Program-made: the position numbers and the translations under genes
Assembly (NCBI RefSeq): GCF_011806455.1
Contig: NZ_JAATOT010000004.1
Span: 434,001-498,000, forward strand
Reading direction: 5' to 3'
DNA length: 64,000 nucleotides
Source: Celeribacter sp. HF31
GTDB taxonomy: Bacteria > Pseudomonadota > Alphaproteobacteria > Rhodobacterales > Rhodobacteraceae
Shown here: positions 1,728 through 46,020 of the stretch, piece by piece
Position numbering within the stretch: position 1 is the stretch's first letter
How the letters are laid out: every line of letters begins with the position of its first letter
Notes under the pieces: model-generated
What the model was told of the DNA's origin: nothing
Databases searched by the model: none
What the model saw: the letters and a program-made list of their open reading frames with translations, nothing else

Positions 1728-3077
1728 ATGTCCAGCCATGCCACCCCGATCCCGATGTCATCGCGCAAGACCGGGCCTTTGAAAGGCACGGCGGCGGTGC
1801 CCGGCGACAAATCTATCTCGCACCGGGCGCTGATTTTCGGTGCCATGGCGGTGGGCGAGACCAAGATCACAGGGCTGTTGGAGGGCGAAGATGTGCTCGA
1901 CACCGCCAAGGCGATGCAGGCGCTGGGGGCCGATGTAGTGCGCGAAGGCGCGGGCGAGTGGACCGTGCATGGCGTGGGGGTTGGCGGCTTTACGGAGCCT
2001 GAAGACATCATTGATTGCGGCAACTCGGGCACCGGCGTGCGGCTGATCATGGGCTGTGTTGCGTGTTATGATTTCTGCACGACCTTCACCGGCGACGGCT
2101 CTTTGCGCAAACGCCCGATGGCGCGGGTGACCGATCCTTTGGCGCTCTTTGGGACGCGGTCTGTCGGGCGCTCTGGCGGGCGTTTGCCGCTCACTTTGGT
2201 GGGCGCCGCCGATCCGGTGCCGGTGGAATATGAGACGCCGGTGCCCTCTGCGCAGGTGAAATCCGCTGTTTTGCTCGCGGGGCTGAATGCACCGGGCAAG
2301 ACCGTGGTGATCGAGAAAGAGGCCACGCGTGACCACACCGAACGTATGCTCACTGGCTTTGGCGCCGAGGTGGTCACCGAAAAGACTCCCGAAGGCTACA
2401 ACAAGATCACCCTCACCGGCCGCCCCGAACTGACCCCGCAAGAGGTCGCCGTGCCGCGCGATCCGTCCTCTGCGGCCTTCCCGGTCTGTGCGGCGCTGAT
2501 CGTCGAAGGCTCGGATATTTTCGTGCCGGGCGTGAGCCAGAACCTGACGCGCAATGGGCTTTACACGACGTTGGTCGAGATGGGCGCCGAGATCGCCTTT
2601 GAAAATGAGCGCGAAGAGGGCGGCGAGCCGGTGGCCGATCTGCGTGTGAAATACTCGAAACTCAAAGGCATCGAAGTGCCGCCCGAACGCGCCGCGTCGA
2701 TGATCGACGAATACCCGATCCTGTCTGTGGTTGCGGCCTATGCCGAGGGCACCACCGTGATGCGCGGCGTCAAGGAATTGCGCGTCAAGGAATCGGATCG
2801 CATCGACGCCATGGCGCGCGGGCTTGAGGCCTGTGGGGTGACCATTGAAGAGGACGAAGACACGCTGATCGTGCATGGTCAGGGACCGGATGGGGTCAAG
2901 GGCGGCGCCACCTGTGCGACCCATATCGACCACCGGATCGCGATGTCGTTTCTCGTGTTGGGCATGGCCTCGAAAGAGCCGGTGACGGTGGATGACGGCA
3001 GCCCGATTGCCACCTCTTTCCCGGTTTTCGAAAAGCTGATGACAGACCTCGGTGCCTATGTGACGCGGAACAACTGA
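1728..3077 (+). CDS. aroA: 3-phosphoshikimate 1-carboxyvinyltransferase (EPSP synthase, class II-like)
   Basis: The enzyme condenses shikimate-3-phosphate with PEP, the sixth step of the shikimate pathway. The 449-residue sequence closely follows class II enzymes: PGDKSISHR (residues 25-33), RDHTE, SAQVK (174-178), [13 protein letters not shown] and KESDR are all visible. In the PEP-site loop it reads GNSGTG (98-103), with Gly101 where the glyphosate-tolerant CP4 enzyme has Ala100. By established structure-function work a glycine there leaves room for glyphosate, so tolerance should not be assumed. The ATG follows AGGAG (GTGAGGAGAACGACCC). It heads the aroA-orf-cmk-orf run with very short gaps. 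Alternative function is very unlikely. Confidence 0.96.
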
Positions 3078-3078
3078 G

Positions 3079-3600
3079 ATGCGCCGGGCGGCGTTCTGGC
3101 TGCTCTTTGCGGTGACCCTCGGGGTCTATGCCGCGATGGTGGGCGGGACGCTGGCGATGATTGCGCGCGACGCGGGGATGCCAGCCTTTGATATGCGGCC
3201 CTGGGGGATGTCGGAAGCGCAGGCGCGGGATTTTCTGAGCGCTTTGTCCGACGACGGCCGAGCCCTCTATCAGGGGCCGCAACGCTGGCTCGATGCAGTC
3301 TACCCTGCGCTTTTGGCGCTGACGGTGATCTGGTCGGCGCGATGGGCGGCGGGGCACTGGCTTTGGGTTTTTCGTCTCGTTTTCGCCGCCGCGGTTTTGT
3401 GCATGCTGGCGGATTACGCCGAAAACATTGCGGTGGCGGGGCTGTTGGGCCAATCCCCCGAGGATGTGAGCGCGGCGGAGATCGCCCGTGCCACGCTCTT
3501 TACCCGTCTTAAAGCCGCAAGTGGGGCCGTTGCGATGACACTTTGGGGCGTGCTTTTGCTCAGACAGCTGGGGCAGAAATTGACAGTGCCGCGCAGCTGA
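3079..3600 (+). CDS. Conserved membrane protein of unknown function
   Basis: A 173-residue protein starts one base after the aroA stop, implying translational coupling. Four hydrophobic segments are visible: about residues 4-28, 74-90, 92-112 ([21 protein letters not shown]) and 145-163. A soluble loop (about 30-72) contains an [18 protein letters not shown] stretch. No catalytic motif or family was recognised. Its place between aroA and cmk is its only functional hint; it could be a bystander carried by the operon. Confidence 0.75.
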
Positions 3601-33680: not shown

Positions 33681-33770
33681 GGAGACGTGGCCGAGTGGTC
33701 GAAGGCGCTCCCCTGCTAAGGGAGTAGGCGGGAAACCGTCTCGAGGGTTCGAATCCCTTCGTCTCCGCCA
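33681..33770 (+). tRNA. tRNA-Ser (anticodon GCU)
   Basis: A 90-nt tRNA with encoded CCA. The acceptor stem is GGAGACG/CGTCTCC and the D region is TGGCCGAGTGGTC. The anticodon stem CTCCC/GGGAG carries loop CTGCTAA (anticodon GCT in DNA). The long variable arm is typical of serine tRNAs, and the T arm is GAGGGTTCGAATCCCTT. Its 3' end is the integration site of the downstream element and is left intact by it. Confidence 0.97.
33757..33770 (+). repeat. attL core (3' end of tRNA-Ser)
   Basis: CTTCGTCTCCGCCA, the last 14 nt of the tRNA gene, identical to 45373-45386. Confidence 0.88.
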
Positions 33771-33890: not shown

Positions 33891-33914
33891 CTTGAGTGGT
33901 ATGGAATGTGGTAT
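33891..33914 (+). repeat. Arm-type repeat, left copy
   Basis: CTTGAGTGGTAT, three bases, then ATGTGGTAT, just in front of the integrase ATG. The same arrangement occurs at 45287-45310 (21 of 24 bases equal). Each copy holds two GTGGTAT half-sites 12 bp apart. The position suggests integrase arm binding and possible autorepression. Confidence 0.65.
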
Positions 33915-33919
33915 TTTTA

Positions 33920-35104
33920 ATGGCCCTTTCTGGCAAGCTGACTAAGAAACTGGTCGAGAGCCTTGGCGCTGGGCGACATGGGGATGGCAACGGGCTTTAT
34001 CTTGTGGTCGATCCGTCCGGTGCGCGGCGCTGGATCGTGCGCGTTGTGGTCAAAGGGGCCAAGAACAAGAAGGGCGCTCCGTTGCGGACGGACTTCGGAT
34101 TGGGCGGGGCGGATATTGTCACGATCAACCAAGCGCGCGAACGGGCGCTGGAGTATCGGCGGATGGCCAAGCAAGGCTTGAACCCGCGTTTCAACGCCCA
34201 GCGCGAAATTCCCACCTTCGAAGAGTTCGCCCAGCAGGTCCACATTGATCGGATGCCGACGTGGAAGAACGCCAAGCATGGCCAGCAATGGATCAACACG
34301 CTGCGTGATTATGCCTTCCCGAAGATCGGCCGAATGCCGCTGGACAGTATCGACCAGCCCGAAGTCATGATGTGCCTGTCGCCAATCTGGACCGAAAAGC
34401 ATGAAACCGCCAAGCGGTTGGCTCAGCGGATCAAGACGGTGCTGGATGTGGCGAAGTCCAAGGGCTTCCGATCCGGCGAAAACCCCGTCACAGGGATCAA
34501 GGACGCAGGTGCGCTGCCAAAGGTGAAGGCCAAGCCCAAACACCACAAGGCAATGCGCTGGCAGGACGTGCCTGCCTTCTACGCGGACTTGAAGGGACGG
34601 AGCGCAATGTCTGCCAATGCACTGCGCTTCACCTGCTTGACCGGATCGCGGACCAGCGAAGTCTTGGGGATGCGTTGGGAAGAGATCGACTTTGACGCGC
34701 GGCTGTGGACCTGCCCCGACGAGCGGATGAAAACGGGGGAAGATCACCGCGTTCCCCTGACAGACGAAATGCTGGCAATTATTGAGCCACTCAAGGGACT
34801 GAAATCCGACTTCGTGTTCGAGGGCCAGAAACGCCACAAACCGCTTTCCAATATGTCCATGCTGATGCTGTTGCGCCGGATGAATGTTGAGGGGATCACG
34901 GTACACGGGTTCCGGTCCACCTTCCGCGATTGGGCGTCCGAAGTGACCAGCGCCCCACGCGAGATTGCCGAAATGAGCTTGTCGCACAGGGTCGGGTCAG
35001 ACGTAGAGCGCGCCTATGCGCGGTCAGATTTATTGGACAAGCGCCGGACCCTTATGGAACGTTGGTCGGGATTTGTATCCGGCATGGGTGAAAATAGTGA
35101 TTGA
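33920..35104 (+). CDS. P4-type tyrosine integrase of the island
   Basis: A 394-residue tyrosine recombinase with an N-terminal DUF4102-type arm-binding region (LTKKLVESLGAGRHGDGNGLYLVVDPSGARRWIVRVV). A central SAM-like core-binding domain (about 100-190) and the C-terminal catalytic domain follow. The catalytic residues fit Arg in LTGSRTSEVLGM, His-x-x-Arg in VHGFRSTFRDW, a His in LSHRVGSDVERAY and the nucleophile Tyr in ERAYAR. The start at 33920 is chosen because it begins the usual fold; an earlier GTG/ATG would overlap the arm repeats. It catalyses insertion in tRNA-Ser and, with an excisionase, excision. Confidence 0.93.
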   Translation: MALSGKLTKKLVESLGAGRHGDGNGLYLVVDPSGARRWIVRVVVKGAKNKKGAPLRTDFGLGGADIVTINQARERALEYRRMAKQGLNPRFNAQREIPTFEEFAQQVHIDRMPTWKNAKHGQQWINTLRDYAFPKIGRMPLDSIDQPEVMMCLSPIWTEKHETAKRLAQRIKTVLDVAKSKGFRSGENPVTGIKDAGALPKVKAKPKHHKAMRWQDVPAFYADLKGRSAMSANALRFTCLTGSRTSEVLGMRWEEIDFDARLWTCPDERMKTGEDHRVPLTDEMLAIIEPLKGLKSDFVFEGQKRHKPLSNMSMLMLLRRMNVEGITVHGFRSTFRDWASEVTSAPREIAEMSLSHRVGSDVERAYARSDLLDKRRTLMERWSGFVSGMGENSD

Positions 35105-35960
35105 GCGGGCTACAGTCCTTGAGATTATTGACTACAAGAGTTTCCCTCAACCGCTTGGAGTTGGCGCCGTTGGCATGGTTTTTGGGAAAGTATCGAACGG
35201 TTTGACAGTCAATTTCTTCTCTGAATTGATCTACCCCTTCCATCTTGATGCAGATGGCAAGCCATCCATCAGCTCCCAATTTGCTCTAAACGCCATTCGA
35301 TATAGTGCGACATCAGAAGTTCTTGTCGCGGTCCAATACTTGCAAGGTCACGGCTGGTTTGAGAGCGACGTCGAGTTCATCATATCTGGCGAAGACCCAT
35401 TCGATGAGCTTCAGGCGAGAGGATGGAAAAATGAGAGAGGTTCCAGTGATGATTGGGGTGTTGCTGAGCGGGTCGATATGGCGTTCTATTTGGAAGATGT
35501 CGTCGGAGAGCTAGAGCAGGATGGCAGCGAGTTCTCAAAAGAGTGGTACTATGCAAAGATCTCTCACCTCTATTTTAGCGATGTGGAAATGCCCGATGTT
35601 GCCATGACGATGGGGATTTTGCTCGCTCAACTTTGGTGGAGGGCAGACGTCGGAGATGTCGCAGAGCGGGGGCAGGCAAACTCTGCGGCGCTGCAAAAGG
35701 CCAACTCTGCTAGGAAAGAGCATTCCAAGGCCCAATCTGAGGACAAAAACAAGGTAATCGCTGAGTATTGGTTTGAAGCGCGGGTGGAGCTAGGAAACGA
35801 AGTAATGCGGCGCGATAGCAACGCTGCTCAGGCAATCTATGCGATAGCCATGCGAAAGCGACCCAAACAACTCTTGATCAAAGCAACTGGCGAAGTGATA
35901 GGCGTTGAAGCCATACGAAAGCGAGTTTCTGCGCTTAGGAAGCTAGAAAAAATCGGATAG
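35088..35960 (+). CDS. Hypothetical island protein
   Basis: A roughly 290-residue protein, probably from the GTG at 35088 that overlaps the integrase end by 17 bp. It contains no motif I recognise. The N-terminal half is mixed alpha/beta (LEIIDYKSFPQPLGVGAVGMVFGK); around residues 195-225 there is an Ala/Gln/Lys-rich helical stretch (GQANSAALQKANSARKEHSKAQSEDKNK). The end is a basic helix-rich segment (IRKRVSALRKLEKIG) that could bind DNA. GC content is lower than in flanking genes. Role in the island unknown; start uncertain. Confidence 0.6.
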   Translation: MKIVIERATVLEIIDYKSFPQPLGVGAVGMVFGKVSNGLTVNFFSELIYPFHLDADGKPSISSQFALNAIRYSATSEVLVAVQYLQGHGWFESDVEFIISGEDPFDELQARGWKNERGSSDDWGVAERVDMAFYLEDVVGELEQDGSEFSKEWYYAKISHLYFSDVEMPDVAMTMGILLAQLWWRADVGDVAERGQANSAALQKANSARKEHSKAQSEDKNKVIAEYWFEARVELGNEVMRRDSNAAQAIYAIAMRKRPKQLLIKATGEVIGVEAIRKRVSALRKLEKIG

Positions 35961-36076: not shown

Positions 36077-36286
36077 ATGGCAGACCTATTCGAGCAAAAC
36101 CGAAACTACGTTCTTGGCGACGAAGAACTTAACCTCCTAGGCGACCGCGAGAAGCTGGCGCAATGGCGGCACAAGGGCGTCGGGCCAGCGTTCTACAAAC
36201 TCGGTCGCAAGATCATCTATCGCGGAGCAGATTTGAACGCATGGGCCGATGCCCAGCGCGTCGATCCGAGTGAAGGGCGCACCTAG
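36077..36286 (+). CDS. Excisionase/AlpA-like helix-turn-helix protein
   Basis: A 69-residue protein with a MerR-like winged HTH of the AlpA/excisionase kind: DEELNLLGDREKLAQWRHKGVGPAFYKLGRKIIYRGADLNAWADAQRV. The final ...KLGRKIIYRGADLNAW is the family hallmark. It has a GAGAGGAATGGAGC leader before the ATG. Its TAG stop overlaps the GTG start of the next gene (TAGTG), so it is coupled to it. It could be the recombination directionality factor for one of the two tyrosine recombinases or a regulator of this module. Confidence 0.75.
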   Translation: MADLFEQNRNYVLGDEELNLLGDREKLAQWRHKGVGPAFYKLGRKIIYRGADLNAWADAQRVDPSEGRT

Positions 36287-36705
36287 TGTCGCGGCGTTTC
36301 AAGACGCGCCGTATCAAAGCCAACAAAGCCTATCGAATTGACGAGCTAGCGGATGTCACTGACGTTGTGCCTGCGACTGTCCGCCAATGGCTAAAAGACG
36401 GTATGGATCGGCTCGATGGCAACCGCCCGACGTTTATCATGGGGTTTCAGGCGCTCGCCTTTTTGGAAGCTCGCAAGGCAAAGGCAAGCCGCCCGTTGGG
36501 CTTGGGAGAATTCTACTGCTTCCGGTGCAAAGCCCAAAGAAGCGCGCTTGGCGCGATGGCGGACTATGTGCCTACGAGTACCAGCGGCGGTCGTCTAAAG
36601 GCGTTGTGTTCCGTCTGTGAGTGCCAATGCAATCGCAACGTTAGTGCCCGTGACATGCCTGCCATTCGGAAAGTTCTGGAAGTGGTGAACAGGGACAGTT
36701 GGTGA
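36286..36705 (+). CDS. HTH plus zinc-ribbon protein of a recombinase module
   Basis: A 139-residue protein beginning with GTG. Residues 15-40 look like a helix-turn-helix (YRIDELADVTDVVPATVRQWLKDGM). The C-terminal half has four cysteines as CxxC ... CxxC plus one more (FYCFRCKAQR, about residues 78-81; LCSVCECQCNRN, about 107-115), fitting a zinc ribbon. The arrangement HTH, HTH/zinc-ribbon, tyrosine recombinase is read in one direction with tight spacing, so the three probably act together in recombination. No named family. Confidence 0.65.
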   Translation: MSRRFKTRRIKANKAYRIDELADVTDVVPATVRQWLKDGMDRLDGNRPTFIMGFQALAFLEARKAKASRPLGLGEFYCFRCKAQRSALGAMADYVPTSTSGGRLKALCSVCECQCNRNVSARDMPAIRKVLEVVNRDSW

Positions 36706-36763: not shown

Positions 36764-37783
36764 ATGCGGAAATATAATGCAGAAAACGAGCGACTGAAGC
36801 GGCGATATGAGCAGTATCTGCGCGAGGCCAAAGGGCAGGACGACAAGTCCATTGACAAGATGCGCGCGGCCTTGGTGAAATTTGAAGAGAGCACCAAGTA
36901 CAAACCGTTCAAGGCGTTCCGTGTCGATCAGGCGCGTCAATTCAAGGATGCCTTGAGCCGCGCCAAGACCATCCAAGGTAAGCCGCTGGCCCTGACAACG
37001 ATTGATGCAACGCTACGATTGGTAAAAGGGTTCTTTCATTGGCTGGCGGGTCAGCAGGGTTTCAAGAAGGTGGTGACCTATTCCGAGGTCGAATACTTCA
37101 ACAACAACCGCAACGATGCCCGAGCGGCCCACGCTCAGCGCGCAGTTCAGTATCCGTCAACAAAAGCCACGCATCATGCATTTCAAGGAATGGCAGATCG
37201 AACAGAGCTGGAACGGCGCAACAAGGCCATTTTCGCGTTTCTGGTGATCACGGGCGCACGGATTGGGGCGGCTTCTTCATTGCGCCTAAAACATATCAAT
37301 CTCGTGGACGGATACGTTTTGCAGGATGGGCGAGAAGTTCGCACGAAAGCTGGCAAGACCTTCACCACATGGTTTTTTCCAATGCATCCCGACTATCTGG
37401 CGTGTTTCACTAGGTGGGTGAACTACCTGCGCAACGAAAAGATGTTTGGCCCGGAAGACGCTTTGTTTCCTCGTCCAGAGCAGCGCTTGGTGAACGGTAA
37501 GTTCGTTTTCGACACAGTATCACGAGAGATCTACACGAACGGCTCCATCATCAACGAGGTTTTTAAGGCTGCGTTTGTGCAGGTTCAGATGCAACCATAC
37601 GGCGCGCACAGCATCCGCAAAACCCTTGTGCAAGAGATGAACGACCGCGACCTAACCCTTGCCGAACAAAAAGCATGGTCTCAGAACTTGGGGCATGAAA
37701 ACTTCACAACGACTGTTTCGAGTTATTTGCCTGTCTCAGAACAACATCAGGGTGTGTTGATCAAGGGTATGCATTTAGATTGA
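36764..37783 (+). CDS. Second tyrosine-type recombinase
   Basis: A 339-residue protein. The N-terminal core-binding domain (about 10-110, helical) ends in LVKGFFHWLAGQQGFKKV. The catalytic domain has the first Arg in VITGARIGAASSLRLKHINL, His-x-x-Arg in GAHSIRKTLVQE, a second His in NLGHENFTTTVSSY and the likely nucleophile Tyr in SSYLPVS. It differs from the P4-type integrase near the tRNA and lacks its arm domain. Having two recombinases suggests an element nested in or fused with another, or a resolvase-like task. The ATG at 36764 is preceded by GGAAAGGACGCTGAGTC. Confidence 0.8.
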   Translation: MRKYNAENERLKRRYEQYLREAKGQDDKSIDKMRAALVKFEESTKYKPFKAFRVDQARQFKDALSRAKTIQGKPLALTTIDATLRLVKGFFHWLAGQQGFKKVVTYSEVEYFNNNRNDARAAHAQRAVQYPSTKATHHAFQGMADRTELERRNKAIFAFLVITGARIGAASSLRLKHINLVDGYVLQDGREVRTKAGKTFTTWFFPMHPDYLACFTRWVNYLRNEKMFGPEDALFPRPEQRLVNGKFVFDTVSREIYTNGSIINEVFKAAFVQVQMQPYGAHSIRKTLVQEMNDRDLTLAEQKAWSQNLGHENFTTTVSSYLPVSEQHQGVLIKGMHLD

Positions 37784-37877: not shown

Positions 37878-38072
37878 ATGCCCAACGAAGACATTCTGAC
37901 CGTGAAAGAGCTCGCTGAGTATCTCAAGATCGCTGAGAAAACGGCATATCGGTTCGCATCTGAGGGCAAGGTTCCCGGGTTTAAGGTGGGAAGCGCATGG
38001 CGATTTCGCAAAAGCGAGATCGACCGCTGGATTGCCGAGCAGGAACAAAAACAAGAAGGGGAGCAAAAATGA
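37878..38072 (+). CDS. Excisionase-family HTH protein upstream of hsdM
   Basis: A 64-residue winged-HTH protein: [47 protein letters not shown], a near-perfect match to the DNA-binding excisionase (HTH_17) pattern, followed by a Glu/Gln/Lys tail. The TGA stop overlaps the hsdM ATG as ATGA, so it is co-translated with the restriction genes. This makes a controller of the RM/PrrC operon more probable than an excisionase, though the latter remains possible. Confidence 0.8.
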
Positions 38073-39616
38073 CCGGGCAACAACAGGCTGAGGCATTGCG
38101 CCGAGAAATCTGGAGCATCGCAAATAGAGTGCGGGGTGCGGTCGATGGCTGGGACTTCAAGCAGTTCGTCTTGGGCGCGTTGTTCTATCGCTTCATCAGC
38201 GAGAACTTCACAAACTACATCGAAGGTGGTGACGACAGCATCGATTATGCTGGCATGTCGGACGCTGACATCCCCGATGAGGCCAAAGTCGATGCGATCA
38301 AGACCAAGGGCTACTTCATCTACCCCAGCCAACTCTTTCAAAACGTGGTGAAATCCGCGAGCAAGAACGACAGCCTGAACACTGACCTTGCCGAGATTTT
38401 TTCGGCGATTGAGGCTTCGGCCAGCGGCTATCCGTCCGAGCAGGACATCTATGGCCTCTTTGCTGATTTCGACACCACCAGCAACCGCCTGGGCAGCACG
38501 GTCAAACAGAAGAACGAAAGACTGGCTGAGGTCCTCAAGGGCGTTGCTGGCTTGCCGTTGAAGTTCGATGATAACGAAGGCGACTTGTTCGGCGACGCCT
38601 ATGAGTTCTTGATCTCGAACTACGCGGCCAACGCGGGTAAATCCGGCGGTGAGTTCTTCACGCCGACCCACGTGTCCAAACTCATCGCCAAACTGGCCAT
38701 GCACAAGCAGACCAGCGTCAACAAGATCTACGATCCGGCGGCGGGGTCTGGGTCGCTACTTTTGCAGGCCAAAGAAGAGTTTGAGAAGCACATAATCGAA
38801 GACGGCTTCTTCGGGCAGGAAATCAATTACACCACCTACAACCTCGCCCGCATGAACATGTTCCTGCACAACATCAACTACGACAAGTTCAACATCCAAT
38901 ACGGTAACACGCTCGAGGACCCGCACTTTCAGGATGACAAGCCCTTTGACGCCATCGTGTCGAACCCGCCCTATTCGGTGAAGTGGAAGGGTGCGGATGA
39001 CCCGACGCTGATCAATGACGAACGCTTTGCGCCAGCTGGGGTTCTTGCCCCGAAGTCGAAGGCCGACTTTGCCTTTGTCCTTCACGCGCTGCACTACCTG
39101 TCGGCCAAGGGGCGGGCTGCGATCGTTTGCTTCCCTGGTATCTTCTACCGTGGCGGCGCAGAGCAGAAGATCCGCAAGTATCTGGTCGACAACAACTTCG
39201 TTGAAACGGTGATCGCTCTCGCGCCGAACCTGTTTTTCGGCACAACCATCGCGGTGAACATTCTGGTGCTGGCCAAGAACAAGACCGACACAGCCGTTCA
39301 GTTCATCGATGCGACCGAGGAGGATACCTTCTTCCGCAAAGGCACGAACAACAACTTCATGGAAGACCGGCACATTGCCGAGATCATGAAGATGTTCGAC
39401 AGCAAAGAGAACGTGCCTCACGTGGCCGAAACCGTCCCCTACGACACGATTGTCGAGAAAGACTATAACCTGTCGGTCAGTGCCCATGTTGAACCCAAGG
39501 ACACCCGCGAAACCGTCGACATAACCGAACTGAACGCCGATTTGAAAACCACTGTCGCCAAGATCGATCAGTTGCGCGCAGACATCGACGCCATCGTTGC
39601 GGAGATCGAGGCATGA
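38069..39616 (+). CDS. hsdM: Type I restriction-modification methyltransferase subunit (type IC)
   Basis: HsdM supplies the N6-adenine methyltransferase of the M2S and R2M2S complexes. The 515-residue protein has the N-terminal HsdM helical domain ([41 protein letters not shown]). SAM motif I is [10 protein letters not shown] (from residue 222) and the catalytic motif IV is NPPY (299-302). The start at 38069 is set by the overlap with the HTH gene and by the conserved [12 protein letters not shown]. The stop overlaps hsdS (ATGA). Equivalent to PrrA of EcoprrI. A host methyltransferase is needed to protect the DNA. Confidence 0.96.
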
Positions 39617-40815
39617 GCAATCGGGGCTTTCTGGAAAGGCTGCTGAATGGGGCTGCGGTCGATTGGGTGCCAATCTCAGAGGTGACGTTACAGACCCGCA
39701 ACATCAGATGGGGCGAGGTCGACGGACCCGTCCGCTACATCGATTTGACTTCGGTCGATATCAAGACGCGTACCATAACTGAAACGAAAGAAATCACAGC
39801 TGACACAGCGCCCAGTCGAGCGCAAAAACTTGTTGAAACCAACGATCTTATTTTCGCGACCACTCGACCTGCACAACAAAGATATTGCCTCATCGGCTCG
39901 GACTTTTCAGGGGAGGTGGCCAGTACTGGCTACTGCGTTCTGCGGGCGGATCAAACAGCGGTTCTACCAAAATGGCTGTTGCATTGGATTGGCTCTCGCG
40001 AATTCAAACAGTACGTTGAAGAGCATCAGAGCGGCGCGGCCTATCCAGCAATTTCGGACGGGAAGGTGAAGGCTTTTCAAATCCCCATCCCATGCCCTGA
40101 GGACCCAGAAAAATCGCTGGCGATCCAAGCGGAGATTGTTCGGATTTTGGACAGTTTCACCGAGCTGACAGCCGAGCTGACAGCCGAGCTGACAGCCGAG
40201 CTTAAGGCCCGTAAGCAGCAATACAACCACTATCGAGAGCAGGTACTGAGTTTTGAAGATGGTGACGTGGAATGGAAGACTTTGGGGGAACTTGTTAACA
40301 CAATAAAGACTGGGAAATTGAATGCCAATGCAATGACGGAAGGCGGTCAATATCCATTTTTCACCTGCGACGCCAATCCTTTCAGAATTGATACCTTTGC
40401 GTTCGACACCGAAGCCATAATCGTATCAGGAAACGGCAGTCAAGTTGGGCACATCAATTACTACAAAGGGAAATTCAACGCGTACCAACGCACATATATT
40501 TTAGCCGACACAGCCGAGACGGTATCGATAGCGTTCTTGCTGACGTATCTCAAAGCGTATCTCAGGCCATATATCATGCAGCATTCAAAGAAGGGTTCCG
40601 TGCCATATATAACAATGCCCATGCTGCAGGGGTTCAAAGTTCCTGTCCCCTCTACTGAGGAGCAAGACCGCATCGTTGCTATCCTCGACAAGTTCGACAC
40701 GTTGACCACATCGCTCAGTGAGGGCTTGCCGCGTGAGATCAAGTTGCGTCAGCAGCAATATGAATACTACCGCGACTTGCTCTTGAGCTTCCCCAAACCC
40801 GAGGAGGCCGCGTAA
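39613..40815 (+). CDS. hsdS: Type I restriction-modification specificity subunit (type IC)
   Basis: HsdS reads the bipartite target and holds two HsdM and two HsdR subunits. The 400-residue protein has TRD1 (about 15-165) and the central conserved region with the spacer repeat ([33 protein letters not shown], about 182-213). TRD2 (about 215-365) and the distal conserved region ([37 protein letters not shown]) complete it. The three consecutive TAEL copies correspond to the EcoR124II-type long spacer. Target sequence is not predictable from the TRDs. It starts in overlap with hsdM and ends directly before prrC without spacing. Confidence 0.95.
40162..40202 (+). repeat. 12-bp ELTA/TAEL tandem repeat in hsdS
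   Basis: Three perfect copies of GAGCTGACAGCC (40162-40173, 40174-40185, 40186-40197) plus a GAGCT remnant. Each copy adds four residues to the helix between the two half-site readers. In EcoR124 two copies give a 6-bp and three copies a 7-bp target spacer. Confidence 0.92.
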
Positions 40816-42012
40816 ATGGGCCAGACCCTCGAGGAGATCGCACAACAGCTGCATGCAGCCGATAAGAAGGTGCAGTTGATCTACGCCTTCAACGGCACTG
40901 GCAAAACTCGGCTGTCCCGGGCCTTGAAGGACCTGATTGCTCCCAAGGCTGAAGACGGTCAGGAGGGCGAGCTCTCGCGGGAAAAAATACTGTATTACAA
41001 TGCCTTCACTGAAGATCTGTTTTTTTGGAACAATGACCTGCAGGGTGACGGCGACGCCAAGTTGGTGATCCAGCCGAACACGTTCACTGAATGGATCTTG
41101 GTCGAGCAAGGGCAAGAGCCAAATATCACCAGGAACTTTCAGCGATACGCCAATGACAAGCTGACACCCACGTTCAACCAAGAATATACCGTTCAAACCA
41201 AGGATGAGCTCGGGCAAGACAAAGAGGTCGTGATCAAGGCCTTCTCTGAAGTCACATTTTCGGTCGAAGCCGGTGGGGACGAGGAAATCGGCAACTTCAA
41301 GATATCCAAGGGCGAAGAAAGCAATTTCATCTGGAGCATATTTTTCACCCTCCTTGAAGAAGTGGTCTCGGTTCTGAGCATTGCAGAGGTCGGCGATCGA
41401 CCAACGGATCAGTTCAATGGGCTGCAGTACGTTTTTGTTGATGACCCGGTCAGCTCGCTTGATGAAAACCACCTGATCGAATTGGCGGTGAACCTGGCGG
41501 ACCTGATCACGGCTGCACCGCCGCAGCTGAAATTCGTGATCACCACCCATAGCCCTCTGTTCTACAACGTTTTGCACAACGAGCTTGATCTAAAGAAGCA
41601 GGGCAAAAAGGAAGGGTGCTATCTGCTTGAGCGGTTGGAAGATGGGAGCTTCAATCTGAATGTCAAATACGGCGATGCGAACAAGAGTTTTTCCTATCAT
41701 TTGCATTTGAAGAAGGTGTTGGAAGAGGCGATCGCTAGCAACGCTGTCGAGCGATACCATTTTACGCTGCTTCGGAACCTCTATGAGAAAACGGCTGGGT
41801 TCCTGGGCTACGCAAGGTGGAGCGATCTGCTCGACACGGTGGAAGGCAGTAAAGACGCCTATGTGCGGGCAATCAACACTTTCACGCACTCGGCGCTTTC
41901 GAATGAGCAGGTCAGGGATCCTTCACCTGCAGAGAAAAACACCGTGAAGCTCTTATTGGAAAATCTGGTTAATAATTACGCCTATTGGCAACAGGATGAA
42001 CAAAATGGTTGA
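40816..42012 (+). CDS. prrC: Anticodon nuclease PrrC
   Basis: PrrC is the tRNA-Lys anticodon nuclease that stays silent inside a type IC restriction complex and is released when a phage disables that enzyme. The 398-residue protein is almost the length of E. coli PrrC and begins the same way ([30 protein letters not shown]). It has the ABC-type NTPase: Walker A GTGKT (27-31), signature-like ISKGEESNF (163-171), Walker [14 protein letters not shown] (206-218) and a H-loop TTHS. The nuclease domain retains Arg320 and Glu324 (LLRNLYEKT) and His358 (TFTHS), matching the known Arg320/Glu324/His356 triad. It lies between hsdS (0 bp) and hsdR (8-bp overlap), exactly as in EcoprrI. Confidence 0.95.
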
Positions 42013-45000
42013 GAAGACGAAAACCATCGCTGAAACGAAGAATTTCATCGTCCTCGACAAGTACACCAAGGAGTGGGATGCCGCCGATCGCTACCAGAGC
42101 GAAGATGATCTGGAACGCGAATTGGTGCAGGATCTGATCAATCAGGGCTATGAGTTCCTGCCTGGTCTCACGACCCCAGATGCCATGCTTGCCAATGTCC
42201 GGGTGCAGCTGGAACGGCTGAACAACGTCACGTTTTCAGATGATGAATGGAAGCGTTTTGTCGAGACCTACCTCGACAAGCCAAGCGACAACATCGTCGA
42301 CAAAACCCGCAAAATCCACGACGACTACATCCATGACTTCGTCTTTGACGACGGGCGCATCCAGAACATCTACCTCGTCGATAAGAAGAACATGGCCCGC
42401 AACAAGCTGCAGGTGATCAAGCAGTTCGAGCAGGTCGGCACGCACGCTAATCGCTACGACGTGACGATCCTGGTCAACGGTTTGCCATTGGTGCAGATCG
42501 AGCTGAAGAAGCGCGGCGTGGCGATCCGGGAGGCCTTCAACCAGATTCACCGCTACAGCAAGGAAAGCTTCAACAGCGAGCATTCCCTGTTCAAGTTTCT
42601 GCAGCTCTTCGTGATTTCGAATGGCACCGACACCCGGTATTTCGCCAACACGACCAAGCGTAACAAGAACAGCTTCGACTTCACCATGAACTGGGCGAAG
42701 TCCGACAATGAGCTGATCAAAGATCTCAAGGATTTCACCGCAACTTTCCTTCAGAAGCGTACGCTGCTGAACGTTCTGTTGCAGTATTCGGTTTTCGATG
42801 TCAGCGACACGTTGCTGATCATGCGTCCTTACCAGATTGCAGCGACTGAGCGCATCCTGTGGAAGATCAAAAGCTCATATGAGGCCAAAAACTGGAGAAA
42901 GCCTGAGAGCGGTGGTTTCATTTGGCACACCACAGGCTCCGGCAAAACGCTGACGAGTTTCAAGGCGGCGCGGTTGGCAACCGAGTTGGATTTCATCGAC
43001 AAAGTCTTCTTCGTCGTGGACCGCAAGGACCTCGACTACCAGACCATGAAGGAATACCAGAGGTTTTCCCCTGATAGTGTCAATGGGTCCGACAGCACGG
43101 CCGGGTTGAAGCGCAACTTGGGCAAGGACGATAACAAAATCATCGTCACGACGATTCAAAAGCTGAACAACCTGATGAAGTCAGAGGGTGACCTGTCGGT
43201 ATATGAACAGCAGGTGGTTTTCATTTTCGATGAATGCCACCGTAGCCAGTTCGGTGAGGCACAGAAGAATCTGAAGAAGAAGTTCAAACGGTTTTACCAG
43301 TTTGGCTTCACAGGAACGCCAATCTTTCCTGAGAATGCGCTTGGGGCTGAAACGACCGCGGGCGTGTTTGGGCGCGAGCTACATTCCTATGTAATCACCG
43401 ATGCCATTCGCGACGAAAAGGTTCTGAAGTTCAAGGTCGACTACAACGATGTGCGTCCCCAGTTTAAAGCCATCGAGACAGAGCAAGATGAAAAGAAGCT
43501 CAGCGCGGCCGAAAACAAGCAAGCGCTACTTCATCCAGAACGTATTCGGGAAGTCTCTCAGTATATACTAAACAACTTCCGTCAAAAAACCCACCGGATG
43601 CAAGTAGGCAGCAGTGGGTTCAATGCCATGTTTGCTGTCAGCAGTGTGGATGCCGCGAAGCTCTACTATGAGACCTTGAACGCTCTGCAGGCGGGCAGTG
43701 AAAAGCCGCTGAAGATCGCGACGATCTTCTCGTTTGCGGCCAACGAACAGCAAGATGCGATCGGTGACATTCAGGACGAGAGCTTCGATGTGTCAGCGAT
43801 GAATAGCAGCGCGAAGGAGTTTCTGGGCGCCGCAGTCAAAGACTACAATTCCTTTTTCAAAACGAATTATAGTGTCGATAGCAGTGGCTTTCAAAACTAC
43901 TACCGCGATCTTGCCAGCCGGGTTCGCTCGAAAGAAATCGACTTGCTTATTGTCGTCGGCATGTTCCTTACAGGCTTTGACGCGCCAACGCTTAACACCT
44001 TGTTTGTCGACAAAAATCTTCGCTTTCATGGCTTGATGCAAGCGTTTTCCAGAACTAACCGGATTTACGATGCGACCAAAACGTTCGGCAATATCGTGGC
44101 GTTCAGGGATCTTGAGCAAGCAACCGTTGATGCGATCACGCTGTTCGGTGACAAGAACACAAAGAACGTCGTGCTTGAGAAGAGCTACGACGAGTACATG
44201 AACGGTTTCGTTGATCAAGAAACCGGTACGGCACGGCGCGGGTTCATTGATGTTGTGAAGGAGCTGACCGAGCGTTTTCCAAAGCCTGACGAGATTGTCA
44301 TAGAAGCAGATAAGAAAGATTTCGCGAAGCTCTTTGGTGAGTATCTGAGAGTTGAGAATGTGCTCAGAAATTACGACGAGTTTTCAGCATTGAAAGCCTA
44401 TCAGGGGCTAGATTTAGCAGATGCCGCTGCCGTTGAGGAGTTCAAGCAAAAGCACTATTTGCGCAACGAGGACCTACGCGACCTGGAGGCGATAGAACTG
44501 CCTTCAGACCGAGCAGTTCAAGACTATAGATCAACATACAACGACATTCGCGATTGGCTGCGCCGGGAAAAGTCTTCGGCTGAGCAAGAACAAGGCAATA
44601 TCGAGTGGGATGATGTTGTTTTCGAAGTGGATCTTCTGAAATCGCAGGAGATCAACCTCGACTACATCCTCGAGCTCATCTTTGAGAAAAACAAAAAGGT
44701 GAAGAGCAAAGGGGATCTGATTGAGGATGCACGCCGCGTCATTCGCGGTAGCCTTGGCAATCGAGCCAAGGAGAGCCTGATCGTGGACTTCATCAACCAG
44801 ACTGACCTTGATCAGATCGATGACAAGGCCGGTGTGATCGATGCATTTTTCTCTTTTGCCCAAGCAGAGCAACGCAAGGAAGTGGAAGAGCTTATCAGAT
44901 CGGAAGATCTAAATTCTGATGCAGCAAGGCGCTATATTTCCGCTTCCATAAAACGCGAATTTGCAAGTGAAAACGGTGCCGACCTCAATGCCATACTTCC

Positions 45001-45106
45001 CAAAATGAGCCCATTAAATCCGCAGTTTCGGACCAAAAAGACGACCGTCTTCGAGAAGATTGCCGCCTTTGTCGAAAAATTCAAAGGTGTTGGTGGGCGG
45101 CTCTAG
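42005..45106 (+). CDS. hsdR: Type I restriction endonuclease subunit R (type IC)
   Basis: HsdR translocates DNA with ATP and cuts it far from the target. The 1033-residue protein follows EcoR124 HsdR closely throughout. The PD-(D/E)xK site is Asp152 (YDVTILV) and Glu166/Lys168 (QIELKKRG), one residue off the published EcoR124 numbering 151/165/167. Walker A is TTGSGKT (about 309-315), DEAD-type box DECHR, motif [11 protein letters not shown], and motif [10 protein letters not shown]. The start is 42005, 8 nt after AGGA; an alternative ATG lies three codons upstream at 41996. It overlaps prrC. HsdR is the subunit whose state is thought to hold PrrC latent. Confidence 0.96.
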
Positions 45107-45351
45107 CGCACGTGTCGGCGATGACTAGGAGGGTTTTCGCTTCTACTTGCTATTCGTAGTGGGTCTGTTTAAGCCCCTGCGCGGGCTCCGATGCAAAGCC
45201 CTATTGTGGTTTAGAGTGAGCGAAAGTGAGACGAGGGCGCATCGGACTTCCAGTCCACTTTGAGTGGAAAAGCCTCAATTTCTGATCTTGAGTGGTATTT
45301 TATGTGGTATAAAATCCAGATAAATTCAATAAGTACAAAAAAGACAAATAG
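45107..45351. other. Element right end, non-coding
   Basis: About 245 bp between hsdR and the right flank with no gene. It contains the right arm-type repeat (45287-45310), another half-site CTTTGAGTGG near 45268-45277, and an AGCCC/GGGCT short inverted repeat around 45172-45187. The remainder is AT-rich. Confidence 0.6.
45287..45310 (+). repeat. Arm-type repeat, right copy
   Basis: CTTGAGTGGTAT, three T residues, ATGTGGTAT; same orientation and spacing as 33891-33914. Confidence 0.65.
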
Positions 45352-46020
45352 TTAAAGATTTAATGTGGCGGACTTCGTCTCCGCCATTTTGCAATCCGGC
45401 ATGGATTCTCCCCGTAATACTTTGAACAGAAACGAAACCTCCGGGGTTCGAAACCCCTCAGTCCGGCAGTAGGCCAAGCGGTCTGCAAAGGCCAGTCTGA
45501 GCACGAGTCGTTGTAGGTCGAAGCGACCTGTTTCCCAGACTTTCCAAAGGCTTGCGGGAAGCCGGATCGCGAGTTCGAACATTTGCTCGAAGGTTGCTTT
45601 CGGCTTGCCTGTTTGCTCCGCCTTTTCGGCTAGCAGTAGCTTTTCCTGTTCGATCTGCCCGATCTTCTTCTCATACGCCTTGATGACTGTGCTGGTGTCC
45701 GCCTCCATCAAGCGGGAGAGCAGCGATTCGACCTGCGCATTCAGTTCCTTGATCTTCTGAGCATAGAGCGCCGCGTTTTCGCGGGCGCGGTCCTAGCGAT
45801 CATTCCAAGCGGCACTGAACATGCGCTTGGCAATTGAGAGTTTCGCAGGTGACGGAGTGATGTCATTGAGCAGAACGGCGAACTCGCCTTCGATCACATC
45901 GCGGCGAATGGATTTGCGGTAGGAGGAACAGCCCTTGTGGAAGCACATATAATAAGGATGCTTCTTGCCCGTCTTGCTCTTCGACCAGCAGGAGGTCAGC
46001 GGGTGAGGTGCGCAAATCTT
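45352..46020 (-). pseudogene. Degraded serine recombinase (C-terminal part)
   Basis: The minus strand reads the zinc-ribbon and C-terminal part of a large serine recombinase: PLTSCWSKSKTGKKHPYYMC, FHKGCSSYRKSIRRDVIEGEF, then a TAG stop at 45793-45795. It then continues in the same frame through a coiled coil and RLVLRLAFADRLAYCRTEGFRTPEVSFLFKVL. The catalytic N-terminal resolvase domain is missing, and the first CxxC of the ribbon is disrupted. The frame ends by running through the att core (MAETK), as many tRNA-inserted recombinases do. This marks an older element at the same tRNA locus. Confidence 0.8.
45373..45386 (+). repeat. attR core
   Basis: CTTCGTCTCCGCCA identical to the 3' end of tRNA-Ser; it also encodes MAETK on the minus strand at the end of the serine recombinase remnant. 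Confidence 0.88.

Follow-up and report, generated by a model that had tools for sequence, protein, structure and literature searches.

Does the operon at positions 38069-45106 of the 64,000-nucleotide stretch of Celeribacter sp. HF31 DNA analyzed here (the window; contig NZ_JAATOT010000004.1, positions 434,001 to 498,000) encode an intact two-layer anti-phage system of the EcoprrI type, and how firmly is its anticodon nuclease, PrrC, tied to the restriction enzyme that surrounds it? A sequence-only reading of this DNA had proposed a complete EcoprrI-like locus. We are highly confident that the operon is of this type, pairing a restriction enzyme with a latent PrrC that would cut tRNA-Lys, and that it lies on a probable small integrative island. 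Comparison with related loci further suggests that PrrC has been exchanged independently of the surrounding restriction enzyme. This exchange, with the retargeting that might follow from it, seems to be the interesting and apparently new part, the locus itself being ordinary; the sequence-only reading mentioned neither the exchange of prrC alleles, nor the integrative setting, nor a helix-turn-helix gene upstream of the operon.

A type IC restriction operon with an embedded prrC gene

Four genes, all on the forward strand and all with open frames, form the core of the locus: hsdM (38069-39616) encodes the type IC methyltransferase subunit (TIGR00497, 618.7 bits), hsdS (39613-40815) the specificity subunit (PF01420), prrC (40816-42012) a 398-residue putative latent anticodon nuclease (PADLOC PrrC, E = 8.8e-138), and hsdR (42005-45106) the type IC restriction and translocase subunit. 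The order hsdM-hsdS-prrC-hsdR and all three junctions, namely a 4-bp ATGA overlap between hsdM and hsdS, a 0-bp gap between hsdS and prrC and an 8-bp overlap between prrC and hsdR, are as the sequence-only reading had given them, and no frameshift interrupts any of the four genes in the assembly. The last junction depends on the choice between two hsdR ATGs, at 41996 and 42005, of which the second gives the 8-bp overlap. We favor 42005 because the alignment with EcoR124 HsdR begins at residue 4 of the window HsdR and because a spacing of -8 recurs in 62 of 105 related loci (starts picked by script).

The three Hsd proteins belong to the EcoR124 family. HsdM and HsdR are called by Pfam, PADLOC and NCBIfam, and HsdS by Pfam and PADLOC; the Pfam matches include the EcoR124_C domain within HsdR (PF12008, E = 6.7e-68). 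In comparison with EcoR124 proteins from the PDB, the alignment proposed in the sequence-only reading extends over the full length of HsdR (1790.8 bits) and likewise of HsdM (E = 3.5e-264), and HsdS matches at E = 5e-62. Such homology, together with the PADLOC match of PrrC, excludes a chance origin and bears out the type IC, EcoprrI-like identity. A 12-bp repeat of 3.6 copies (40160-40202, forward strand) encodes three TAEL repeats in the spacer helix of HsdS. A review likewise gives three TAEL repeats for EcoprrI and EcoDXXI, and relates the third repeat of EcoR124II to a 7-bp gap (PMC3874165). Scanning the operon for promoters and terminators was uninformative, with 5 and 10 hits where 4.6 and 9.7 would be expected. 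Elsewhere in the host genome there is a second EcoR124_C-type HsdR (G000:C8:345729-346514, open frame of 525 residues); our searches of that genome found no second prrC.

Our comparison with EcoprrI rests on an Escherichia coli plasmid homologue, L003 (CP057689), rather than on the proteins of the original prr strain. L003 has the same gene order, with spacings of -4, +1 and -8, and its PrrC shares with the window PrrC the nuclease triad, the recognition peptide and D287, His356 of PrrC being His358 here. Identity between the two loci is 78% for HsdM, 58% for PrrC, 77% for HsdR and 35% for HsdS. Unlike L003, the window has a helix-turn-helix gene overlapping hsdM, a different HsdS, and a probable chromosomal island at a tRNA-Ser gene as its setting. 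EcoR124 shares HsdR and HsdM with the window and differs in the HsdS recognition domains; to our knowledge it lacks prrC. In L003 (CP057689.1, 24453-37640) the neighbors of the operon are phd/doc and genes for a terminase and a late promoter-activating protein, and the plasmid looks like a P1-type phage-plasmid. The presence of PrrC in phage-plasmids is mentioned in a review (PMC11652158).

PrrC motifs and the candidate tRNA substrate

The window PrrC is predicted to consist of a Rad50-like ABC ATPase (residues ~1-256) followed by a tRNA-recognition peptide and a HEPN-type nuclease (~257-398). Walker A (FNGTGKT), the ABC-like signature (SKGEES), Walker B with the D-loop (VDDPVSSLD) and the linchpin His245 are all present and conserved, and the ATPase fold is seen in a structural model of the protein. 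The nuclease residues Arg320, Glu324 and His358, which the sequence-only reading had listed along with the Walker motifs and the signature, are kept in all 109 aligned PrrC proteins, the window copy included. Among family libraries, PADLOC has a PrrC match and Pfam has AAA_13 as the sole family above cut-off; NCBIfam gave no match for PrrC, and a sequence search at E <= 0.01 found no solved relative. With 398 residues and no CXXC motif, the protein falls within the 341-416 residues given for PrrC proteins, which are without the zinc hook, in PMC2610378. The same source describes RloC as sharing the ABC ATPase and an Arg-X3-Glu-Xn-His nuclease, as in the window PrrC, but with 658-897 residues and a zinc-hook coiled coil. 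We rejected RloC membership on the length of the window protein and its lack of CXXC.

The recognition peptide (residues 284-294), for which a role in tRNA-Lys recognition is described (PMC3014915), is present with D287 kept, and differs from that of L003 at one residue over the 13-residue stretch compared. Sorted manually, 98 of the 109 proteins, including the window's, carry what we call class I, mostly K-x-G-D-S/A-N-x-SFSYHL. Nine carry class II, which is 2-3 residues shorter and mostly Q-x-x-D-S/R/H-PFSYHL, and two (L143 and L144) have a distant form. Because the sample consists of the 80 stretches most like the window, out of 516 that encode relatives among 84,980 species genomes scanned, together with loci from viral contigs and plasmids, class II is probably under-counted. 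In all, the viral contigs yielded 22 loci and the plasmids 113 records.

By analogy with EcoprrI, from which the latency, the anti-restriction trigger and the tRNA-Lys target are all carried over, the system would act in two layers. In the first, a type IC HsdR2M2S complex would methylate host DNA and cut unmodified DNA. In the second, PrrC would be made with the complex and kept latent by it; a phage inhibitor that disables the restriction enzyme would release PrrC, with GTP and dTTP involved, and the released nuclease would cut tRNA-Lys(UUU) 5' to the wobble base, stopping translation.

The host-side check of tRNA-Lys(UUU) suggested in the sequence-only reading gave the gene and loop in question. 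Among 44 typed tRNA genes of the host genome there is one tRNA-Lys, with anticodon UUU and anticodon loop CUUUUAA, the loop that E. coli tRNA-Lys also has. With no tRNA-Tyr in this set and an assembly completeness of 96.3%, a second tRNA-Lys gene may have escaped detection. The host further encodes an MnmA-type protein (322 bits) and a PF05430 domain (134 bits), which we take to be linked to MnmC and hence a candidate of the MnmC methyltransferase type. E. coli PrrC prefers a wobble uridine with 2-thio and 5-methylaminomethyl groups, contacted by Asp287, according to PMC3014915. The host tRNA-Lys and the two candidate wobble-modification enzymes (the search covered the MnmA and MnmC types) thus fit a tRNA-Lys target. 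That an active PrrC cuts some other tRNA in this host is very improbable in our judgment: the recognition sequence is conserved in a subset of PrrC proteins and otherwise varies, so that substrates may vary too (PMC3014915), yet the window peptide is of class I, one residue away from that of the E. coli plasmid homologue and with D287 kept, and the host loop is CUUUUAA.

Apparent exchange of prrC among type IC loci

Pairwise comparison of the 87 loci in which HsdM, PrrC and HsdR are all complete (among which L131 duplicates L111) gave Spearman correlations between identities of 0.81 for HsdM and HsdR, 0.53 for PrrC and HsdM, and 0.43 for PrrC and HsdR. When PrrC is split at residue 256, its N-terminal part correlates with the three HsdR parts at 0.50-0.56 and its C-terminal part at 0.14-0.23. 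When a complete HsdS is required as well and L131 is left out, 81 loci remain, and 83 pairs of them show at least 90% identity in HsdR and at least 85% in HsdM; their PrrC C-terminal parts are less than 50% identical in 18 pairs and at least 90% identical in 10. For pairs at HsdR >= 92%, the corresponding numbers are 1 and 6 of 17.

Similar disparities are seen against the window itself. L044 is close in HsdM (89.9%), PrrC (94.7%) and HsdR (93.1%). For L083 these values are 87.7, 62.2 and 94.1%, for L123 97.1, 65.9 and 91.3%, and for L124 92.8, 79.9 and 94.0%. Two loci from genomes of the window's family add L229 (HsdM 93.4%, HsdR 90.4%, PrrC C-terminal part 37.3%) and L230 (82.7, 91.1 and 49.6%). 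The C-terminal domains of L083 and L229, both of class II, are 37-39% identical to that of the window beside HsdR proteins 94% and 90% identical. In a sliding DNA comparison, the step in identity falls where prrC meets hsdR in L083; in L124 it lies within prrC. In L230 (G218:C10:140000-149500) the PrrC is class-I-like with Ala at the Asp287 position, and stands beside an HsdR 91% like the window's.

Phylogenetic trees of a quick kind were computed for two sets of rows. The first set had 38 rows hand-chosen from the 87 loci; a later set of 39 rows added L229 and L230, the latter taken for its HsdR, and left out L141. The window, L044, L083, L123 and L124, in which both HsdM and HsdR are at least 85% like the window's, form a clade on the HsdR tree (Shimodaira-Hasegawa-like approximate likelihood ratio test, SH-aLRT, 99.9). 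On HsdM these five loci are no clade in the free tree, yet the grouping is not rejected (approximately unbiased, AU, test, p = 0.359). Over the 38 rows, PrrC rejects the grouping (p = 3e-5), as do its N-terminal part (p = 1e-7) and its C-terminal part (p = 7.5e-51). Including L229 and L230 leaves the HsdR clade in place (99.9), and the group is again rejected by the C-terminal (p = 1.4e-12) and N-terminal (p = 1.4e-5) parts of PrrC; on the PrrC trees the terminal branches of these two added loci are long.

Class II, which has 8 of the 39 rows, is one clade on the tree of the PrrC C-terminal part (SH-aLRT 100). Mapping it onto the HsdR tree takes 7 changes, and onto that of the PrrC N-terminal part 6; a single class II group is rejected in either case (p = 5.2e-5 and p = 3.5e-5). 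For the 7 class II rows among 86 loci, the HsdR tree requires 6 changes and the HsdM tree 7, several supports being weak. The C-terminal part thus seems to pass from one ATPase part to another, and from one hsd operon to another. Contact with the restriction enzyme would presumably be kept by the N-terminal part, and the C-terminal part would be an interchangeable module, which would explain HsdR proteins 90-94% identical beside C-terminal domains 37-39% identical.

The disagreement between PrrC and the two Hsd proteins might instead reflect faster evolution of PrrC with no exchange at all. PrrC does have the lower median pairwise identity (65.5%, against 81.1% for HsdM and 80.8% for HsdR). 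Some of our own comparisons also tell against exchange: the contrast weakens when windows of 60 residues are compared, with mean correlations of 0.38 for PrrC, 0.55 for HsdM, 0.51 for HsdR and 0.14 for HsdS, and conserved windows of HsdM and HsdR fall to 0.30 and 0.16, so that some short conserved windows track the backbone no better than those of PrrC. Faster evolution does not, however, account for L083 and L229 falling in the well-supported class II clade when their HsdR shares 94.1% and 90.4% identity with that of the window, nor for reverse pairs such as L005 and L117 (PrrC 93.9%, HsdM 86.0%, HsdR 85.8%), nor for L124, a mosaic within prrC whose N-terminal part is 72.9% and C-terminal part 92.3% identical to the window. 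We hold this alternative to be very improbable and prefer exchange, as these comparisons of sequences suggest.

What might drive the exchange? It is plausible that selection acts on the recognition domains of the neighboring hsdS and that prrC is carried along by recombination in the conserved hsdM and hsdR. The two genes also move separately, as L044 has another HsdS (38%) with nearly the same PrrC. More tentatively, and with somewhat less than even confidence, we propose that PrrC is a two-part cartridge, in which the ATPase part docks onto a type IC enzyme that hardly varies and the C-terminal part is swapped between lineages much like the target-recognition domains of HsdS. Class II proteins may then cut a different tRNA, and a swap would retarget the suicide layer, aiding escape from phage tRNA repair or phage-encoded decoy tRNAs with the sensor unchanged. 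The idea of retargeting draws support from the statement in a review (PMC3014915) that PrrC substrates may vary. We found no earlier report of prrC exchange in the literature searched, whose coverage excluded two main PrrC papers, and we do not claim that none is in print.

The window locus provides an intact alphaproteobacterial system of the EcoprrI type with close natural controls in L083 and L229, which have HsdR 94% and 90% identical and another C-terminal part. This makes it possible to ask which part of PrrC is silenced by the restriction enzyme and whether the C-terminal part sets the tRNA target. PrrC is named among guardian systems that sense inhibition of restriction-modification in a review (PMC12707154), and an exchangeable effector half, if true, would change views on how such guards evolve.

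Distribution of the locus

The window locus is an ordinary member of a known, widespread family, prrC orthologues having been linked to type IC loci (PMC2610378, PMC3014915 and PMC3874168). The closest relative among the 80 stretches kept is 95% identical, and the record titles of these best 80 of 516 include many Pseudomonadota and some other phyla; a phage collection gave no match. The sequence-only reading had stressed the great distance of the host from E. coli. That distance is no surprise given that many Pseudomonadota, some other phyla and plasmids carry relatives.

Within the window's family, 10 of 295 genomes have a PrrC match. Six are of the type IC kind (the window's own genome, G121, G205, G208, G218 and G221), three are distant (G128, G261 and G288, beside hsdM 34-41% like the window's) and one is a remnant (G209). 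EcoR124_C HsdR occurs in 28 of the 295, among them the six, G209, G128 and G288. The class II PrrC of L083, used as query, has matches in 10 of 385 genomes drawn from the class.

The gene can be lost, and a full prrC of the window kind stands beside HsdR in 6 of the 28 family genomes with EcoR124_C HsdR, as might be expected if the type IC enzyme works and PrrC is an inactive or repurposed passenger between hsdS and hsdR. Loss is seen in L231 (G209:C12:4500-12500), where positions 2579-3392 hold an hsdS frame of 214 residues and, of PrrC, only a stretch matching the last 41 residues before an intact hsdR, and which looks like a deletion derivative without the nuclease. Against a passenger role, the motifs and triad are intact in the window copy and in the full set of aligned sequences, and the window frame is open despite the divergence of prrC across the family. 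We consider such a role very improbable and retain the reading of an active, latent nuclease.

A group of distant PrrC-like proteins (L143, L144, L152-L154 and L224-L226), with ~28-33% identity, has a recognition region that is mostly ETPFFHHV or DTPFFHHV. It adjoins hsdM 34-41% like the window's, with EcoR124_C HsdR close by in G128 and G288.

A helix-turn-helix gene upstream of hsdM

An open reading frame at 37878-38072 (forward strand), overlapping hsdM by 4 bp (ATGA), encodes a 64-residue helix-turn-helix protein of the excise or MAD1 type (NF047737, 81.5 bits against a cut-off of 80; TIGR01764, E = 1.4e-13) that is probably a regulator of the operon. A relative ends within ~60 bp of hsdM in 16 loci (L044, L045, L046, L047, L048, L050, L055, L064, L083, L096, L101, L105, L111, L123, L124 and L141; L131, a copy of L111, is left out of the count), and a sizeable share of the alphaproteobacterial relatives therefore have an operon of five genes. 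L044, from an uncultured Roseovarius sp. (CANMFU010000004.1), resembles the window in this protein (95%) as in HsdM (90%), PrrC (95%) and HsdR (93%). It differs in HsdS (38%), and the 15 kb around it gave no match to the window's island integrases at E <= 1e-8.

The methylation-associated defense system (MADS) combines the MAD1 helix-turn-helix protein with MAD2 and MAD5. Membership, hinted at by the MAD1 match, was rejected: HsdM scores 44.1 against a cut-off of 720 and HsdS 27.2 against 400, and the PADLOC mad2 and mad5 models match at 193.4 and 162.5 bits, well under the 388.4 and 383.8 bits of MTase_I and Specificity_I.

A probable integrative island at tRNA-Ser

The operon probably sits on a small integrative island and is probably a mobile copy. 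A tRNA-Ser(GCU) gene (33681-33770, forward strand; ARAGORN) is the probable attachment site, and beside it lies a gene for a tyrosine integrase with an Arm-DNA-binding domain (33896-35104, forward strand; PF00589, PF22022, PF13356). The 14 bp at the 3' end of the tRNA gene (33757-33770, candidate attL) are repeated exactly at 45373-45386 (candidate attR), both on the forward strand, and integrase and repeat together bracket ~11.6 kb containing the operon. A chance repeat was rejected, since a given exact 14-mer is expected ~5e-5 times per 12 kb at equal base frequencies. The GC content is 52.1% inside the island and 58.9% for the window. A 24-bp repeat (family D18; 33891-33914 and 45287-45310, forward strand, 88% match) may be an integrase arm site, at least in its left copy.

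Of six same-genus relatives fetched, five lose homology 0-11 bp beyond the 3' end of the tRNA gene, and one, L202, stays homologous as far as 35066, with a related integrase. The tRNA-Ser site consequently looks like a hotspot. Across 20 same-genus genomes (own included), the left flank has some match in all 20 and a match through tRNA-Ser in 9, full-length matches to the right-flank gene occur in 11, and no clean empty attachment site was seen. The right flank lies on the left-flank contig in two of ten other genomes (~80 kb away in G306, ~430 kb in G312) and on a different contig in eight, which is uninformative in drafts.

Several other frames lie on the island or at its edge. A 314-residue frame at 35016-35960 overlaps the integrase end; searches of Pfam, PADLOC, NCBIfam and PHROGs at E <= 0.001 returned nothing for it. 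An open reading frame spanning the right repeat (45352-45711, reverse strand), with no family match, may, judged by eye, resemble the C-terminal piece of a recombinase, perhaps from an older element at the same site. Ahead of the operon, a small frame with two CxxC pairs and no family match (36286-36705, forward strand) is followed by a second tyrosine recombinase (36764-37783, forward strand; PF00589, E = 1.6e-09) and then by the prrC operon. The same arrangement of small frame and tyrosine recombinase precedes the operon in L058 (2407-3893, uncultured Erythrobacter), with identities of 37% and 40%.

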